From NCBI GenBank assembly GCA_021812785.1, contig JAKAMR010000092.1, positions 1-8,636 on the forward strand: 8,636 nt of DNA, given 5' to 3'. Shown here piece by piece: positions 1-8,188 of this stretch (the first letter of the stretch is position 1; every line of letters begins with the position of its first letter). The position numbers were made by a program, and so were the translations under genes. Under the pieces are notes generated by a model. It worked only from the letters and a program-made list of their open reading frames with translations. It searched no databases and was not told the origin of the DNA. Source of the DNA: Nitrospirota bacterium. GTDB taxonomy: Bacteria; Nitrospirota; Thermodesulfovibrionia; Thermodesulfovibrionales; JdFR-88.

Positions 1-1761
1 AAGTGGAGCCTGTTCAACCTCCACGACCCTTTCGATGTGCTCTACCCCCTTCAGTTCCCTGAACTCTCCCGGTCTTTGGCTTCCGCCATACAGTTGCCTG
101 TCAAGCGCCTTGTAGATTATCTCGTTCACAAGGGTGCTCTTGCCGGAGCCCGAAACGCCGGTGACGCAGGTAAACAGTCCAAGGGGTATCTTTACATCTA
201 TGTTTTTCAGGTTATAAGCCCTGGCGCCGAGCACCTCCAGGAATTTCTTCCCCTCCAGGCTCCGCCTTTTTTCGGGAAGCGGGATGCTTAGTTCGCCCTT
301 CAGGTATTTGCCGGTGAGGGAGTTCTCATTATGCAGGATCTCCTGCGGCGTGCCAGCGGCCACTATGCTGCCCCCAAGGACTCCCGCCCCCGGGCCCATG
401 TCCACAATGTGGTCAGCCCGGAGCATCGTCTCTTCATCATGCTCCACAATTATGACCGTGTTTCCCTGCTCCTTCAGCTTTTGAAGGCTGTCAAGGAGTT
501 TGCCGGAATCCCTGGGATGGAGGCCTATCGTGGGCTCGTCCAGTATGTAGAGCACGCCCGTAAGCGAGGAGCCCATCTGGGTGGCAAGCCTTATCCGCTG
601 GGACTCCCCTCCCGAAAGCGTTATGGACGGACGGTCGAGCGTCAGGTAGCCCAGGCCCACGTCGTCCAGGAAACCGAGCCTCTCCGTTATCTCCTTAAGC
701 AGCCTTTCGGCTATTGTTTTTTCGCGCCTGGTGAACTTCAGGCCCTGGATGAACTGTAGCGCCCGTCCAGCGTTTTTGCGCGAAAGCTCCCCGATGCTCA
801 ACCCGCCTATCTTTATGCTCAAGGCCTCCGGCCGCAGCCTCATGCCTTTGCATGCGCGGCATGGCCTTCCCGTGTCTATTTCCTCCTCTTCCCCGGCCTG
901 AGAAAGCAGCTCGTACCCGAGCCCGCGGCATGAGGGACAGGCGCCGGACCTGCTGTTGAAAGAGAAGAACATCGGGGTTATCTCCGGATAGCTTATCCCG
1001 CAGTGGGGGCAGACGGCCCGGCTGCTGAAAACGATGTCCTCTCCACGATCTATGAGGTTCACTATTACACTGCCGGCGTAGTGCAGCGCCGTTTCCACGG
1101 CGCTTTTAAGCTGCCTGTCTATCCCCGGCTTTATTATGAGCCTGTCTATCACTATTTCTATGGTGTGGCGTTTGTAGCGGGCCAGTTCCACCTCTCCGGT
1201 TATGTCAACTAGCTTGCCGTCTATTCGGGCCCTTAAAAAGCCCTCGGCCCTCATCTCGTGGAGCTCCTTTTTGTAGGAGCCTTTCCTGTCCTGCACAATG
1301 GGTGAAAGCACTTGGAAGCGGGTGCCCGCCGGAAGCTCCGCTATGGTGCTTATTATGTCCTGCGGCCCCTGGCCGGAGACCGGGGACCCGCACCGGTAGC
1401 AGAAGGCCTTGCCGGTCCTTGTATAGAGCACCCTCATGTAATCATATATCTCCGTAACGGTGCCAACGGTGGACCGTGGGCTCCTTGTCACGGTCTTCTG
1501 GTTTATGGCAATGGAAGGAGAGAGGCCCTCTATGGAATCCACATCCGGTTTGCTCAGCTCGCCAAGGAACTGCCTTGCGTACGGGGACAGGCTCTCCACA
1601 TACCGGCGCTGGCCCTCTGCGTAGATGGTGTCTATCGCAAGGGTGCTTTTGCCGGAGCCGGACGGGCCCGTTATGACCGTGGTCTTTTGCCGGGGGATCT
1701 GAAGCTTTATATTTTTTAAGTTATGTTCCCTGGCGCCAGATATTACAATGAAATCCTGCAT
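1..1761 (-). CDS. uvrA: UvrA, excinuclease ABC subunit A (N-terminal 587 residues; C-terminus outside window)
   Basis: UvrA is the dimeric ABC-type ATPase that finds bulky DNA lesions and loads UvrB in nucleotide excision repair. Read on the minus strand from ATG 1761, the frame is open to the window edge. Visible in order: Walker A GPSGSGKST (residues 32-40); the family stretch with AEGQRRYVESLS (48-59); a CxxC (121, 124); a UvrB-binding region (about 130-245); a zinc module C251/C254/C275/C278; a second CxxC (301, 304); ABC signature LSGGESQR (382-389); Walker B LYILDEP (404-410); H-loop EHD (440-442); and the second Walker A GVSGSGKST (535-543). Only 22 residues separate C278 from C301, against about 125 in E. 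coli as I recall it, so the insertion domain is missing while the UvrB-binding region is kept. An in-frame stop lies just upstream (TAG at 1767-1765), making ATG 1761 the first possible ATG; no clear Shine-Dalgarno precedes it. Family assignment is certain. Confidence 0.97.
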   Translation of the reverse strand, partial: MQDFIVISGAREHNLKNIKLQIPRQKTTVITGPSGSGKSTLAIDTIYAEGQRRYVESLSPYARQFLGELSKPDVDSIEGLSPSIAINQKTVTRSPRSTVGTVTEIYDYMRVLYTRTGKAFCYRCGSPVSGQGPQDIISTIAELPAGTRFQVLSPIVQDRKGSYKKELHEMRAEGFLRARIDGKLVDITGEVELARYKRHTIEIVIDRLIIKPGIDRQLKSAVETALHYAGSVIVNLIDRGEDIVFSSRAVCPHCGISYPEITPMFFSFNSRSGACPSCRGLGYELLSQAGEEEEIDTGRPCRACKGMRLRPEALSIKIGGLSIGELSRKNAGRALQFIQGLKFTRREKTIAERLLKEITERLGFLDDVGLGYLTLDRPSITLSGGESQRIRLATQMGSSLTGVLYILDEPTIGLHPRDSGKLLDSLQKLKEQGNTVIIVEHDEETMLRADHIVDMGPGAGVLGGSIVAAGTPQEILHNENSLTGKYLKGELSIPLPEKRRSLEGKKFLEVLGARAYNLKNIDVKIPLGLFTCVTGVSGSGKSTLVNEIIYKALDRQLYGGSQRPGEFRELKGVEHIERVVEVEQAPL

Positions 1762-1869
1762 GTGCTATAAATGGAAACCCTTAAAACCTTTCAAAAGAAT
1801 GCTCCCTAACCTATTAATATAATGGATGCCCTCCAATTCTTTCAAATAGCCTGCATGGAAAAATTGGTT

Positions 1870-1875
1870 TATAAT
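1870..1875 (+). promoter_or_regulatory. Candidate -10 box for the DUF1573 gene, leaderless arrangement
   Basis: A perfect TATAAT lies six bases before ATG 1882, so a transcript from it would begin at or next to that start codon. No Shine-Dalgarno precedes either ATG of the pair 1879/1882. No convincing -35 box is seen at 16-18 nt. A second perfect TATAAT at 1818-1823 could give a leader of about 50 nt instead. Confidence 0.3.
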
Positions 1876-1878
1876 TAC

Positions 1879-2304
1879 ATGATGCTAAAAATAAAAAGAC
1901 AGCTTTTGAGCATAGCTGTTGCCATGTGCCTGGTGCTTCCCGCGGTTTTTGTTTTTTTCTACATGCCCCGTGCGGCCTTGGCCCAGCCCAGGATCGTCTT
2001 TAAAAAGGAGGCGATCAATTTCGGGAAGGCCGTTGCCGGCAAGGAGGTGCAGGGCATATTCGTTGTTTCAAACAAAGGCGACCAGCCGCTTGAAATCGAT
2101 GGGTTGAGGCCCGGTTGAGGCTGCACCGCCGCGCTTGCCAGTTCGGCAAGTCTTAAGCCTGGTCAGACGGGGACCATCATGGTAAAGATAAGCACGAAGG
2201 ATGAGTTCGGGTATATAGACAAGAATGTCCAGGTCCTAAGCAACGACCCCAAAAGGCCCAGGGTGCAACTCTCCCTTTTTGGCCTTGTCGTCTCTGGCAA
2301 ATAG
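1879..2304 (+). CDS. Exported DUF1573-family protein, candidate selenoprotein (in-frame TGA at 2116-2118 read as Sec)
   Basis: Read through TGA 2116-2118, this frame encodes 141 residues ending at TAG 2302. An N-terminal signal peptide has a KIKR basic start, a long hydrophobic core and an AxA-type site (ALA, then Q at residue 36). The mature part is one DUF1573 (ASH/PapD-like Ig-fold) domain: a FKKEAINFGKAVAGKEV strand, FVVSNKGDQPLEI, then RPG-U-GCTAAL, KPGQTGTI, and the closing LSNDPKRPRVQLSLFG. DUF1573 proteins normally carry CGCT here; TGA replaces the first Cys exactly and the rest of the domain continues intact. A SECIS-like hairpin follows the TGA. The family's function is unsettled; a redox or metal-binding role for the CxC/UxC pair is inference. 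Tandem ATGs at 1879 and 1882 fit the signal peptide; an upstream ATG at 1822 would add an unlikely leader. The alternatives are a nonsense-mutated pseudogene or a sequencing error. The next gene begins 68 nt downstream, probably in the same transcript. Confidence 0.75.
2116..2160 (+). promoter_or_regulatory. Candidate bacterial SECIS element downstream of the UGA
   Basis: The UGA is followed 21 nt later by an apical loop AGUUC (2140-2144) closed by a perfect 6-bp stem, CUUGCC (2134-2139) with GGCAAG (2145-2150). A 5-bp basal helix AGGCU (2118-2122) with AGCCU (2156-2160) starts at the A of the UGA itself, with an internal loop between the helices. From memory, bacterial SECIS elements place the apical loop about 16-37 nt after the UGA and need a G among its first two bases; here G is second and is followed by U, as in the E. 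coli fdhF element (loop AGGUCU). This is a match by eye, not a folding calculation. Confidence 0.65.
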
Positions 2305-2323
2305 ACAAAGGGCCGCATGAAAA

Positions 2324-2352
2324 ACGGATAAAGAAGTCTCTTTAAGGACCGT
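2324..2352 (+). other. Imperfect hairpin between the DUF1573 and prenyltransferase genes
   Basis: ACGG (2324-2327) pairs with CCGT (2349-2352), and AAAGA (2330-2334) pairs with TCTTT (2339-2343) around the loop AGTC. An AT/AAGGA internal loop separates the two helices. No T-run follows, so it does not look like a terminator; it may only shape the intercistronic RNA just ahead of the AAGGA ribosome site at 2359-2363. Confidence 0.25.
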
Positions 2353-2372
2353 CCCAAAAAGGAATCGAAAAA

Positions 2373-3221
2373 ATGTTCAGGCGTTTTGTTCTGTTTCTGA
2401 GGATGATAAAATTTTCCCATTCCATTTTCGCCCTCCCTTTCGCTTTTACTGCGGCGCTGATGGCCTCTGGCGGCATGCCCAGGGCTGGCAAGCTCTTGTG
2501 GATCACCCTTGCCATGGTCGGCGCAAGGTCCGGGGCAATGGCCGTAAACCGGATAGTGGACCGCAAGATAGATGCCCTGAACCCAAGGACAAGCAAAAGG
2601 GAACTTCCCTCCGGAAGGCTGGGCCTGGCCGAGGTCCTGGTTTTTGCCCTTTTGTCCTTTACACTGCTTGTATTTGCCTCGTGGAAGCTTAATCCGCTTT
2701 GCCTTGAGCTATCTCCGGTAGCCATAGCGCTTGTTGTATTTTATTCCTATACGAAAAGGTTCACCTGGGCCTCCCATTTTTTCCTCGGCCTGGCCCTCTC
2801 GCTTGCACCCCTTGGCGCCTGGATAGCCGTGCGCGGCCAGGTGGGGGCGGCCTCAGTCTTTCTTGCCCTGGCTGTTGTCTTCTGGCTTGCGGGCTTCGAC
2901 ATACTTTATGCCCTTCAGGACATGGATTTCGACCGCAGCCACGGGCTTTATTCGGTGCCCGCCCGGTTTGGGATCAGAAGGTCCCTTGCAGCCTCAAGAG
3001 CCTTTCATGTGCTCAGTGTCCTTATGCTTGGCGCGGCAGGCGCGATCATGTCCCTGGGGCCTGCATACTGGGCAGGCCTTGTTGTCGTATCAGGGCTGTT
3101 TGTCTATGAGCATTCTCTTGTGAAAGAAAACGACCTGAGCAGGCTGAACATGGCTTTTTTCAACATGAACGGCTGGATCAGCGTGGCGGTATTGCTCTTT
3201 ACAGCGCTTTCTTTTGTCTGA
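2373..3221 (+). CDS. mqnP: UbiA-family prenyltransferase, MqnP-type (menaquinone biosynthesis)
   Basis: This is an integral membrane prenyltransferase of 282 residues, the usual length for UbiA proteins, with several hydrophobic helices. The two Asp-rich motifs that bind Mg-diphosphate are intact: NRIVDRKID (N59-x3-D63-x3-D67) and YALQDMDFD (D183-x3-D187), followed by GLYSVPARFG. The wording of the second motif matches the subgroup called 'putative 4-hydroxybenzoate polyprenyltransferase'. In bacteria using the futalosine route, this enzyme (MqnP) attaches the polyprenyl tail to 1,4-dihydroxy-6-naphthoate. The aromatic substrate cannot be told from sequence alone, and no other mqn gene is visible, so the symbol is provisional. 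ATG 2373 has AAGGA at 2359-2363, nine bases upstream. It lies 68 nt after the DUF1573 gene in the same direction. Its last 23 bases overlap the convergent gene. Confidence 0.88.
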   Translation: MFRRFVLFLRMIKFSHSIFALPFAFTAALMASGGMPRAGKLLWITLAMVGARSGAMAVNRIVDRKIDALNPRTSKRELPSGRLGLAEVLVFALLSFTLLVFASWKLNPLCLELSPVAIALVVFYSYTKRFTWASHFFLGLALSLAPLGAWIAVRGQVGAASVFLALAVVFWLAGFDILYALQDMDFDRSHGLYSVPARFGIRRSLAASRAFHVLSVLMLGAAGAIMSLGPAYWAGLVVVSGLFVYEHSLVKENDLSRLNMAFFNMNGWISVAVLLFTALSFV

Positions 3222-4142: not shown

Positions 4143-6329
4143 TTGCTTAAAAACCGTTATATGAACCATCTCATAGATATACAGTTTTTGACGAAGGCCC
4201 TCAAATCCCTTTCGAGCCTCACAGGGCTTGATTTTTCCATTTATGACGACAGGGAAAACCTGCTGGTGCCTGCTTCAAGTGAGGACCCTCTTCTGTCTTC
4301 CATAAAGATGAGCAAAAAGGGGCAGGAGCTGTATAACGCATTCCAGTCCAAGTACCTGAAGCTGACGCTGAAAAACACCAGGTCTTTTCTTATCCAGGGA
4401 TTCACAATGCAATACCACGTTTTCATGCCCATAAGGTACAAGGACATCACCCTGGTTGCTCTTTGTGAGGGCTTCTACATGCAAGAGGATGATTTCGCCA
4501 GGTTCTATGCGGAAAAAGGCGTAATATTCGGGGTTACGGAACGGGGCATGGAAGAGTGGAGGAAAGACCTGAGGTTCATAAGCGCGCAAAAGATAGAAAA
4601 TTACATCAAATCGGCAAGGCCCCTCCTGGAGGACATCATATCTTCCGGGTATGAGAAAGGGGAGCTCAACAAAAGGTGGCAGTGGTCAAAAACCATTATA
4701 AGCCTGGCTGCCAATATAAAATCCGATGCCACGCTGGATGACATACGGCAGATCATCGTGGACACGGTCATATTCCTGTTCAATGTGGACACTGCCGCTA
4801 TCTTTACGCCCATTAAGGACCATTTCTGTCCCGAATCGGCCGGAGGGCGCGCCAGGGACGCGATCAGCAGGCTCAAGCTTTCGAAGGACAACTATCTTGT
4901 GTCGAACGCCGTTCACTCGAAGGCCCCCGTTTCGGCCATTGACAGCTTCAAACTGAAGCATTCGGGTTTTCCGGAAGAAATAATTTCCATGTATCTCTTC
5001 CCCATACAGTCGCACTCGGGCTTTTTCGGGTTCCTGGGGATATTCAACTCACTGCTGGACCGCGAGGCATTCGACTCCATAGAGGAGCTCTGCAAGCTGT
5101 CGGCCTACCTCTTTGGCGTAAGGCAGCTTGGAGCGGAGTACATGAAATACTCGGACGGGATAAATCTCATAACCTGCAAGACGATGGAGCTTTTTTCCCA
5201 TTACAGGGACAGGCAGGCTCTATGCGACCAGATCGTAAACGAGGCCGCCCTGCTGGTGGGAGCGGAGAAATGCTCCGTGATGCTGCTTGACGAGGACGGC
5301 GATGCCCTCAGCGTTATCTCTGTCAAGGGCGTGAACAAATGGCTCATGAAGGACGTGAAGATAAAAATAGGGGAGGGCGTAGCCGGAAAGGTCTACCAGC
5401 AGGGTCTGCCCGTTCTGATAGACAGCGAGGAGAAGCTTAAGAGGTTTACGGCGGCGCCAAAGCCCCTTTTCAAGACACAATCATGCATCAGCATACCGCT
5501 CAAGATCTCAAGTGAGACTATGGGCATCCTTAACGTTGCGGACAAGGCCAGCGGAGAGACCTTTACGGAAAAAGACCTGTCCGTGCTCACTCCGTTTGCG
5601 GCCCAGGCCTCTCTGCTTTTAAAGCTGGCAGATTGCCATAAGGTCTCTGAACAGATGAGGGAGCTTTCGATAACCGATCCTCTGACCGGCCTTTTCAACA
5701 GGCGGTATTTCGATGTGCGGCTTGAAGAGGAGCACCGCAGGGCCATGCGGTACAACTTGAATTTTTCACTTGCCATACTGGACCTGGACGATTTCAAGCT
5801 GCTCAACGACACCCAGGGCCACCTTGCGGGCGACTATGCCCTGCGGGAGGTGGCAAACGTGATGGCCAACTCGATAAGGGCAAACGATATACTGGTAAGG
5901 ATCGGAGGCGAGGAGTTTGCGATAATAATGCCTCAGACGGGAAAAGACGAGGCCTTCCATGTCCTTGAGCGGATCAGAAACAATATAAGCTTCATGGCTT
6001 TGCCCGGCATTAAGGATGGACCGGTCTCAAGGCTGACCATAAGCACGGGCATCGCGATGTATCCGGAATGCGGAGAGTCGATCGAGAGCATTATCGTGCA
6101 GGCGGACAAGGCTCTTTACTTCGCCAAGACGAACGGGAAGAACAAGACCGTGTCCTGGCACGCGGGAATGGATTTCAAGACGGCTAAGATCTCCGTCCCG
6201 GACGGCGCCGGCATCGGGAACAGCGAGGCCTGCCCTGGCGGCAGGCTTACCGCAGGCAATGTCCCCTCCGGCCTCCATAGCGGGAAACAACAAAACCCCG
6301 ATGAGCCCTTTAAGGGTTTCGCTATCTGA
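4143..6329 (+). CDS. Sensor diguanylate cyclase: PocR-like, GAF, GAF, GGDEF
   Basis: It makes the second messenger c-di-GMP from two GTP. The protein has 728 residues from TTG 4143. Order of domains: a PocR/PAS-like sensory region (about 10-130), a linker helix (about 140-190), a diverged GAF (about 190-330), a clearer GAF (about 350-495) containing IGEGVAGKVYQQG and a C-terminal GILNVADK strand, then GGDEF (about 505-670). The cyclase domain carries DPLTGLFNRRYFD (512-524), the metal-site LDLDDFKLLND (546-556), the active site GGEEF (588-592) and an RxxD inhibitory site (R579-D582) exactly five residues before it. It should therefore be active and product-inhibited. No membrane segment or EAL domain is present, so it is cytosolic. 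About 55 low-complexity residues trail the domain. ATG 4161 is an alternative start; neither start has a well-placed Shine-Dalgarno. The ligands are unknown, and the PocR-like call is the least certain part. Confidence 0.93.
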   Translation: MLKNRYMNHLIDIQFLTKALKSLSSLTGLDFSIYDDRENLLVPASSEDPLLSSIKMSKKGQELYNAFQSKYLKLTLKNTRSFLIQGFTMQYHVFMPIRYKDITLVALCEGFYMQEDDFARFYAEKGVIFGVTERGMEEWRKDLRFISAQKIENYIKSARPLLEDIISSGYEKGELNKRWQWSKTIISLAANIKSDATLDDIRQIIVDTVIFLFNVDTAAIFTPIKDHFCPESAGGRARDAISRLKLSKDNYLVSNAVHSKAPVSAIDSFKLKHSGFPEEIISMYLFPIQSHSGFFGFLGIFNSLLDREAFDSIEELCKLSAYLFGVRQLGAEYMKYSDGINLITCKTMELFSHYRDRQALCDQIVNEAALLVGAEKCSVMLLDEDGDALSVISVKGVNKWLMKDVKIKIGEGVAGKVYQQGLPVLIDSEEKLKRFTAAPKPLFKTQSCISIPLKISSETMGILNVADKASGETFTEKDLSVLTPFAAQASLLLKLADCHKVSEQMRELSITDPLTGLFNRRYFDVRLEEEHRRAMRYNLNFSLAILDLDDFKLLNDTQGHLAGDYALREVANVMANSIRANDILVRIGGEEFAIIMPQTGKDEAFHVLERIRNNISFMALPGIKDGPVSRLTISTGIAMYPECGESIESIIVQADKALYFAKTNGKNKTVSWHAGMDFKTAKISVPDGAGIGNSEACPGGRLTAGNVPSGLHSGKQQNPDEPFKGFAI

Positions 6330-6669: not shown

Positions 6670-6710
6670 GTTTTGAAAATTTTTTACGATTTTCTTTTTT
6701 TCTATGGCTT

Positions 6711-6716
6711 GGGAGG
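6711..6716 (+). promoter_or_regulatory. Ribosome binding site that sets the activator start at 6725
   Basis: GGGAGG ends eight bases before ATG 6725. The upstream in-frame ATG at 6704 would place this site inside the coding sequence and has no site of its own, so 6725 is the better start. Confidence 0.8.
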
Positions 6717-6724
6717 CAAAGGAA

Positions 6725-8188
6725 ATGACTGAAAATAGCGGCAGCGTGCTTATAGTGGACGATGAGCCCAACGCCGTAAAAGTCCTTTCCGAGATCCTTT
6801 CGATCGATGGTTACCGGGTATATAAATCATTTGATGCCCGCGGGGCCCTTAGCATGGTAAAGACCGAGTCTCTGGATGCGGTCATAACGGACCTGAGGAT
6901 GCCCGGATTTGACGGCATGCAGTTTTTTGAGTCCATAAGGGAAAACCATCCCGATATCCCGGTGATATTCCTGACCGGCTATGGCACGGTGGAATCGGCG
7001 GTAGACACGATCACCGAAGGGGCGTATTACTATTTCATCAAACCGCCTGATTACACGAAGCTCAAAGGGGTGCTTTCAAGGGCGATAAGCACACGCCGCA
7101 CGCTGCTTGCCTTCCGGTCGCTCCAAAAAAGCGGCATCCTTGGAAGGACGCTTCGCTCCCGCCGCATGAGCCTGTGCTCCGCCGTCCCGTCAGAAGAAGG
7201 CATTTTGCCAGGCGGCATCAGGATGCTAGGGAATGACCCCGGCATGAAGAAGATATTGGAGACAGTCGATTCTGTCAGGGACACGACCTCCAGCGTGCTC
7301 ATAACAGGGGAGACCGGCACCGGCAAGGAGCTTATTGCCAGGGCCCTTCATTTCGGCGGGATCAGGCACCAGAAGCCTTTCGTTGCCGTCAACTGTGCGG
7401 CCATCCCCAATGAGCTGCTTGAATCCGAGCTTTTCGGGTATGAAAGGGGGGCGTTTACCAATGCAGTGTCGAGGCGGATAGGCAAATTCGAAGAGGCTTC
7501 CTCGGGGACTATCCTGCTTGACGAGATAGGCGAACTCAGCCTCCCGCTTCAGGCCAAGCTCCTCCGTGTCCTTCAGGAAAGGGAACTGGAGCGGCTTGGG
7601 GGAGGCAGAAAGATAAAAGTGGACTTCAGGCTGATCTCCTCTACTAACAGTTCCCTTGAAAAAGAGGTCCAGGCGGGAACCTTCAGAATGGACCTCTTCT
7701 ATCGCATTAACGTTGTGCATATTTCGGTGCCTCCGCTCAGGCAGAGAAAGGGTGACATCCCTGTCCTGGCAAGCGAGTTCATAAAAGAGTTCTCTGAAAG
7801 GGAGAATAAGGAAGTCGAGATTTCGGATGAGGTGATGGCCATGCTCTGTGATTATTCCTGGCCGGGCAATATCAGGCAGCTGAGAAACGTCCTTGAAAGA
7901 CTGGTCGTTCTGTCGAGGACCGGGAAGGTGTCGCTGCGCGATTTGCCGGAAGAGCTTATGGCCTTGAGGGCAGCAGTTCCCGATGCGGAGCCCATGGCTT
8001 CCGCCAAGGCGCCGGCCTTCCCCGGGAGGGGCGCTCAGACCCTCAGGGAACTCGAGGACAGGGCAGTTTTAAATTCCCTTGAGGAGTGCCGCGGCAACAA
8101 ATCAAAAGCTGCAAAGATGCTGGGCATCTCCAGAAAAACATTCTACAAAAGGCTCAGGGAGATTGACCCCGGCAGTACCTCCGCCTAG
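6725..8188 (+). CDS. NtrC-family sigma54-dependent response regulator (receiver, AAA+, Fis-type HTH)
   Basis: It is an enhancer-binding protein of 487 residues that, once phosphorylated, remodels sigma54-RNA polymerase. The receiver domain (about 6-120) has the acidic pair D12/D13, phospho-acceptor D56 in ITDLRMPG, T84 and K106, so it should be phosphorylatable. After a linker of about 40 residues comes the AAA+ domain: Walker A GETGTGKE (195-202), the sigma54-contact loop GAFTNA (242-247, usually GAFTGA), Walker B TILLDE (262-267), an arginine-finger region [10 protein letters not shown] and sensor [16 protein letters not shown]. The C-terminal Fis-type helix-turn-helix reads [22 protein letters not shown] at the fifth position of the loop is unusual, but the F and T that contact sigma54 are kept. 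No histidine kinase gene adjoins it, so its partner is elsewhere. Its targets are unknown; galE, 84 nt downstream, may or may not be one. No sigma54 promoter was found upstream of either. Confidence 0.95.

Follow-up and report, generated by a model that had tools for sequence, protein, structure and literature searches.

A gene for a DUF1573 protein from a Nitrospirota bacterium carries a single in-frame TGA, which raises the question of whether this codon ends the protein or is decoded as selenocysteine (Sec). The window, by which we mean the whole stretch of DNA analysed (8,636 nucleotides), lies within contig C62 of a 2.58 Mb source genome (116 contigs, 85% complete). On the sequence evidence, UGA 2116-2118 is very probably decoded as selenocysteine in an exported DUF1573 protein (probability about 0.93). 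The features concerned are:

1..1761, minus strand: 5' part of uvrA, divergent
1879..2304, plus strand: predicted DUF1573 selenoprotein gene, 141 residues, Sec at residue 80, stop TAG 2302-2304
1879..1983, plus strand: probable signal peptide, about residues 1-35 (translation, by eye; helix 2-28 in the structure model)
2116..2118, plus strand: UGA in the column of the first CGCT cysteine, probably a selenocysteine codon
2122..2124, plus strand: TGC, Cys82 in translation, partner in the U-G-C motif
2134..2150, plus strand: SECIS-like apical hairpin (stem 2134-2139 with 2145-2150, loop AGTTC 2140-2144)
2373..3221, plus strand: UbiA-family prenyltransferase gene (UbiA/MqnP-like), downstream

The DUF1573 gene and its place among listed selenoproteins

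The TGA at 2116-2118 lies in frame in a complete DUF1573 domain, on the first Cys of the family's CGCT, and is followed by 61 sense codons before TAG 2302-2304; the coordinates and reading given in an earlier note on this DNA were right. Translated with TGA as Sec, as that note had suggested, the gene gives a full match to Pfam DUF1573 (PF07610; 69.1 bits against a gathering cut-off of 26.1), in which residues 39-131 align with profile positions 1-92 of 98 and U80 stands in the context R-P-G-U-G-C-T. Under the standard code the frame stops at 2118, leaving a 98 aa ORF; the gene cut at its UGA is now corrected. Candidate starts are ATG 1879 or 1882, the frame being open from ATG 1822 too. By eye, the N-terminal hydrophobic stretch, ending ALAQ, resembles a Sec-type signal peptide, and the protein is probably exported.

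To the earlier note DUF1573 was not known as an established selenoprotein family, and on this point it has to be corrected: as far as the consulted parts of these papers go, two reviews (PMC9312934 and PMC13188914) already tabulate DUF1573 (pfam07610) with the motif UGC, one among predicted families and the other with one Sec, both crediting it to Zhang and Gladyshev 2007, and the 2008 table of PMC2398784 has it as OS_HP2 (pfam07610, motif UxC), its Sec column giving 2 and what appears to be its Cys column 354. With its PF07610 domain and an in-frame UGA giving UGC, the window protein fits the reviews' definition. It resembles the OS_HP2 selenoprotein in combining PF07610 with Sec as the first residue of U-G-C, but differs in its Nitrospirota source and in scoring 80.1 bits, below the cut-off of 100, against NCBIfam NF041425 (OS_HP2_seleno, "OS_HP2 family (seleno)protein"); five relatives also fall below that cut-off (85.5, 82.2, 62.7, 56.7 and, for a part, 22.4). 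The window protein thus belongs to a kind already described, though not to the NCBIfam subfamily in its strict sense.

UGA forms, cysteine forms and the hairpin behind the codon

Among 12 genomes of the window's family, 6 (counting that of the window itself) hold a match, each with one TGA, and a search of the class at E 1e-3 gave matches in 119 of 230 genomes. The best-scoring 84 among the class matches listed (the window's own included) all contain TGA, here meaning anywhere inside the match, some matches holding other stops too; lower-scoring ones are mixed. Of the loci read, L041-L070 are the 30 best-scoring class matches with stops disregarded (29 relatives and the window's own) and L071-L090 are 20 chosen from matches showing TGA, while most of 20 comparison stretches were chosen for the absence of TGA, so that these selected sets give no estimate of the frequency of the Sec form. 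TGA stood at the Sec column in 50/50 of L041-L090, the window's own being one; the earlier note's proposal to look for UGA at this column in relatives was thus borne out in 49 of 49 (29 unselected best matches and 20 chosen for TGA). One TGA in each of the six family matches, together with the same column in all 50 loci, argues that the in-frame TGA is not due to chance, and the residues after it are conserved among relatives. A scan with the family alignment gave 11 named loci, the nearest five being Nitrospirae MAGs. The predicted Sec form of DUF1573 is common in this one Nitrospirota class, a selenoprotein type of which few Sec examples had been listed (2 in the 2008 table, in the part of PMC2398784 consulted).

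A phylum-wide sample around the window matched in 111 of 395 genomes at E 1e-8. Outside the class, one group (f25; 13 genomes, 14 loci read) has UGA and four groups (f22, f23, f24 and f28; 20 genomes, 20 loci read) have Cys; two f25 genomes (G677 and G697) hold weaker TGA-free matches as well. In a sample of another phylum (395 genomes, entered via a Bacteroidales locus), 233 genomes match a Cys homologue, and TGA is absent from the matches listed, two rows of which hold TAA. A Cys type of DUF1573 protein, several members of which are named as Ignavibacteria or Bacteroidota, resembles the window protein in that its second domain mostly reads C-G-C-T-A-A-L-x-S; it differs in having two domains (about 240 aa), Cys for Sec, and no SECIS codons at the sites read.

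Directly behind the window's UGA, the sequence points to a SECIS hairpin of six perfect pairs (CTTGCC-AGTTC-GGCAAG), whose loop begins 21 nt past the UGA. Of 53 distinct UGA stretches, 52 have a loop AGTT[CT], which starts 21 nt past the UGA in 47 and 24 nt past it in 5, the last stretch having GGTTC instead; all 19 Cys stretches in that set lack the loop. Stems have six pairs in 37 of the UGA stretches, five in 15 and four in one (mean 5.68 of 6), against a mean of 4.17 (sd 0.12, maximum 4.47) in 500 synonymous-codon shuffles that kept the protein. Swapping 3' arms gave 5.0 pairs (maximum 5.24, observed 5.68) in the main register of 38 sequences, 4.6 (observed 5.6, equal to the maximum) in the 10-sequence register that includes the window, and 5.65 (observed 5.8, again equal to the maximum) in a 5-sequence register; all these pairing statistics ignore relatedness among the sequences. 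The best control for the hairpin is provided by Cys homologues from the other phylum in which this Ser-Ser is retained, as it is at 15 of 52 sites (30 loci): their codons are AGC-AGT, AGC-AGC and the like, with AGTT[CT] in 0/15 and a mean of 3.6 pairs. In f25, AGTT[CT] lies 21 nt after the UGA in 12 of 14 stretches (stems of 4 to 6 pairs) and two are without the loop. An Rfam scan of window positions 1750-2600 matched nothing, even at E 1, and the case for a SECIS element therefore rests on comparison. In folding energy, a weak criterion when taken alone, the window stretch was not clearly better than shuffles (z -0.57, and z -1.21 in a second run, of which two further stretches, starting at another offset than the first, were left out).

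The f28 Cys forms carry AGTTCC in 4 of 6 cases (L166, L168, L169 and L171), with 2 to 4 stem pairs, and these AGT-TCC codons with a poor stem are possibly the trace of a Sec-to-Cys change. A tree of 107 domains (68 UGA and 39 Cys; no outgroup root), from which repeat copies of the same genomes, rows with fewer than 70 filled columns and rows lacking both TGA and a Cys codon were left out, requires five state changes. This unrooted tree has poor resolution, 48 of its 104 inner branches being open, and places the f28 Cys forms with other Cys rows, so that a change from Sec to Cys that left a fossil loop can be taken only as a hint.

These comparisons bear on two further explanations. That the TGA is a nonsense mutation ending a dead or shortened protein would agree with the standard-code ORF of 98 aa, and one UGA-form gene (L063) has an additional in-frame TGA 13 codons upstream of its Sec codon; the same column is, however, TGA across many genera, the residues past it are conserved and the hairpin is constrained at the codon level, so that a pseudogene is very improbable. 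A Cys codon misread as TGA in the assembly, for which nothing speaks beyond the 116 contigs of the genome, is harder still to credit, the same TGA being present in assemblies of other species.

Selenocysteine machinery in the source genome and beyond

All the genes for selenocysteine insertion that the earlier note had proposed to look for, selA, selB, selC (tRNA-Sec) and selD, are present in the source genome, selD in pieces. The tRNA-Sec scores 73.1 bits, and ARAGORN too identifies it as tRNA-SeC (anticodon tca), two weaker matches above the Rfam cut-off being a tRNA-Ser and a tRNA-Leu; selB scores 360 bits against a cut-off of 242, selA scores 600 bits, and selD is fragmented, with two pieces above the cut-off. 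One selD piece at a contig edge (L038, G000:C8:1-180) holds a TGA within its CAGUAAK motif, and SelD of the source genome is thus probably a selenoprotein too. A second selD-like stretch (L035 and L037, G000:C59) has a TGA and, further along, two TAG; this copy may have decayed or have a broken frame.

The earlier note's view of the gene as a probable selenoprotein is supported by these Sec genes and by the TGA common to relatives; two outcomes that it had named as refuting, a genome without selB/selC and relatives that all have TGT/TGC at this column, did not occur. The hairpin just past the codon would recruit SelB together with Sec-tRNA-Sec, by which UGA 2116-2118 would be decoded as Sec80, and the product would be an exported DUF1573 selenoprotein with an Ig-like beta-sandwich. 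A genome-wide recoding of UGA as Trp or Gly would also let the frame continue beyond a UGA, but can scarcely be entertained given the single UGA before the stop, its position on the Cys column, the tRNA-Sec, selA and selB in the genome, and the use of TGA as the stop of the DUF1573 gene itself in 4 of 6 family copies.

Within the class the co-occurrence of selB is non-discriminating, 206 of 230 genomes being above the cut-off. Outside it, selB is above the cut-off in 10 of 13 f25 UGA genomes versus 2 of 20 Cys genomes, and selB pieces at contig edges add one UGA genome (G689) and two Cys genomes (G667 and G654). Two f25 UGA genomes, G663 (96% complete) and G697 (74%), gave no selB-level match, which we can only put down to gaps. 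Group f23 has Cys in DUF1573 though selB is retained.

Neighbours, fusions and a possible redox or metal role

The earlier note had suggested redox chemistry for this family, which is plausible: fusions and neighbours of relatives fit the suggestion, while the window gene's own neighbours are silent. In the window the DUF1573 gene stands between uvrA and ubiA, with no redox partner adjoining it. The six family genomes with a match all have these two neighbours, and uvrA recurs in one f7 locus and nine f9 loci, f7 and f9 being two other families of the class, and at low identity in one f6 locus; these two neighbours give no role for the DUF1573 protein. Structure matches were rejected as functional evidence, since they reflect the fold only: the HYDIN/ASH/PapD-like Ig fold of PDB 2qsv (16% identity over the aligned part) is shared, and tells no function.

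Among relatives, a region with two CxxCH motifs (at +75 and +96) continues 15 of 54 distinct UGA frames, several of which end at the edge of the stretch read, and the one such frame that was scanned matched Pfam Cytochrome_CBB3 (46.3 bits). The U-G-C domain with this C-terminal region is found in L060, L061, L066, L069, L070 and others, and two CxxCH at 75/96 or 76/97 occur in 14 of 20 Cys loci. A second type of DUF1573 has U-R-x-C-T (UxxC). In L114 a UxxC domain lies behind a carboxypeptidase-regulatory-like domain, near genes for an ABC-2 transporter, a transglutaminase-like protein and a redoxin (Pfam), and the UxxC locus L113 has a SCO1/SenC gene (Pfam); L111, L112, L116 and L117 are, by eye, operon-like loci resembling these two. 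In L115 (1436-2233) a SCO1/SenC domain is joined to DUF1573 through the UGA, with the UxxC motif U-R-A-C-T. Tandem DUF1573 proteins with a UGA in each domain occur in six f6 genomes (L111:1475-2893 in G067, and L161-L165), with a loop AGTTC 21 or 24 nt after each UGA; their second domain has U-K-K, U-K-R or U-R-R with no Cys nearby.

Sec80 and Cys82 lie at the sandwich edge and would probably form a reactive selenol/thiol pair. Judging from relatives, this pair may exchange electrons or a metal ion with partners in the periplasm, for instance SCO1-like proteins, thioredoxin-like proteins or c-type cytochromes. A redox or metal role as a whole is, on this comparative evidence, somewhat favoured. 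Through the CxxCH fusions, SCO1 links, UxxC loci and two-UGA tandems of relatives, a redox or metal-relay role in the periplasm becomes open to test, and the fusions suggest a testable job for DUF1573, in which its selenol/thiol pair would act together with periplasmic cytochromes, SCO1 or redoxins.

Whether such a pair would serve thiol-disulfide exchange, or whether U-G-C would instead bind a soft metal (Cu, Hg etc.), bears on the same relatives. The role of SCO1 we take to be copper handling, and both the relative joined to SCO1/SenC and those near SCO1/SenC and ABC-2 transporter genes would suit metal binding; the two-CxxCH fusions and the redoxin neighbour, on the other hand, fit electron transfer equally, and we regard soft-metal binding as rather unlikely. 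More broadly, and still tentatively, Sec-DUF1573 could be a periplasmic redox module used in several Nitrospirota machines (alone, with a two-CxxCH cytochrome c-like region, joined to SCO1, or as a double-Sec tandem) and delivering electrons or copper to respiratory enzymes. If true, the listed family, with its single Sec and UGC motif, would gain new variants in U-x-x-C and double-Sec; the searched literature, PMC10434189 and the three papers above among it, makes no mention, as far as its consulted parts go, of a Sec form common in one Nitrospirota class, two-CxxCH or SCO1 frames, UxxC near SCO1 or redoxin genes, or two-UGA tandems.

Elsewhere in the window, translations read by eye give a GGDEF-like signalling protein at 4143-6329 and a sigma54-type response regulator at 6704-8188.
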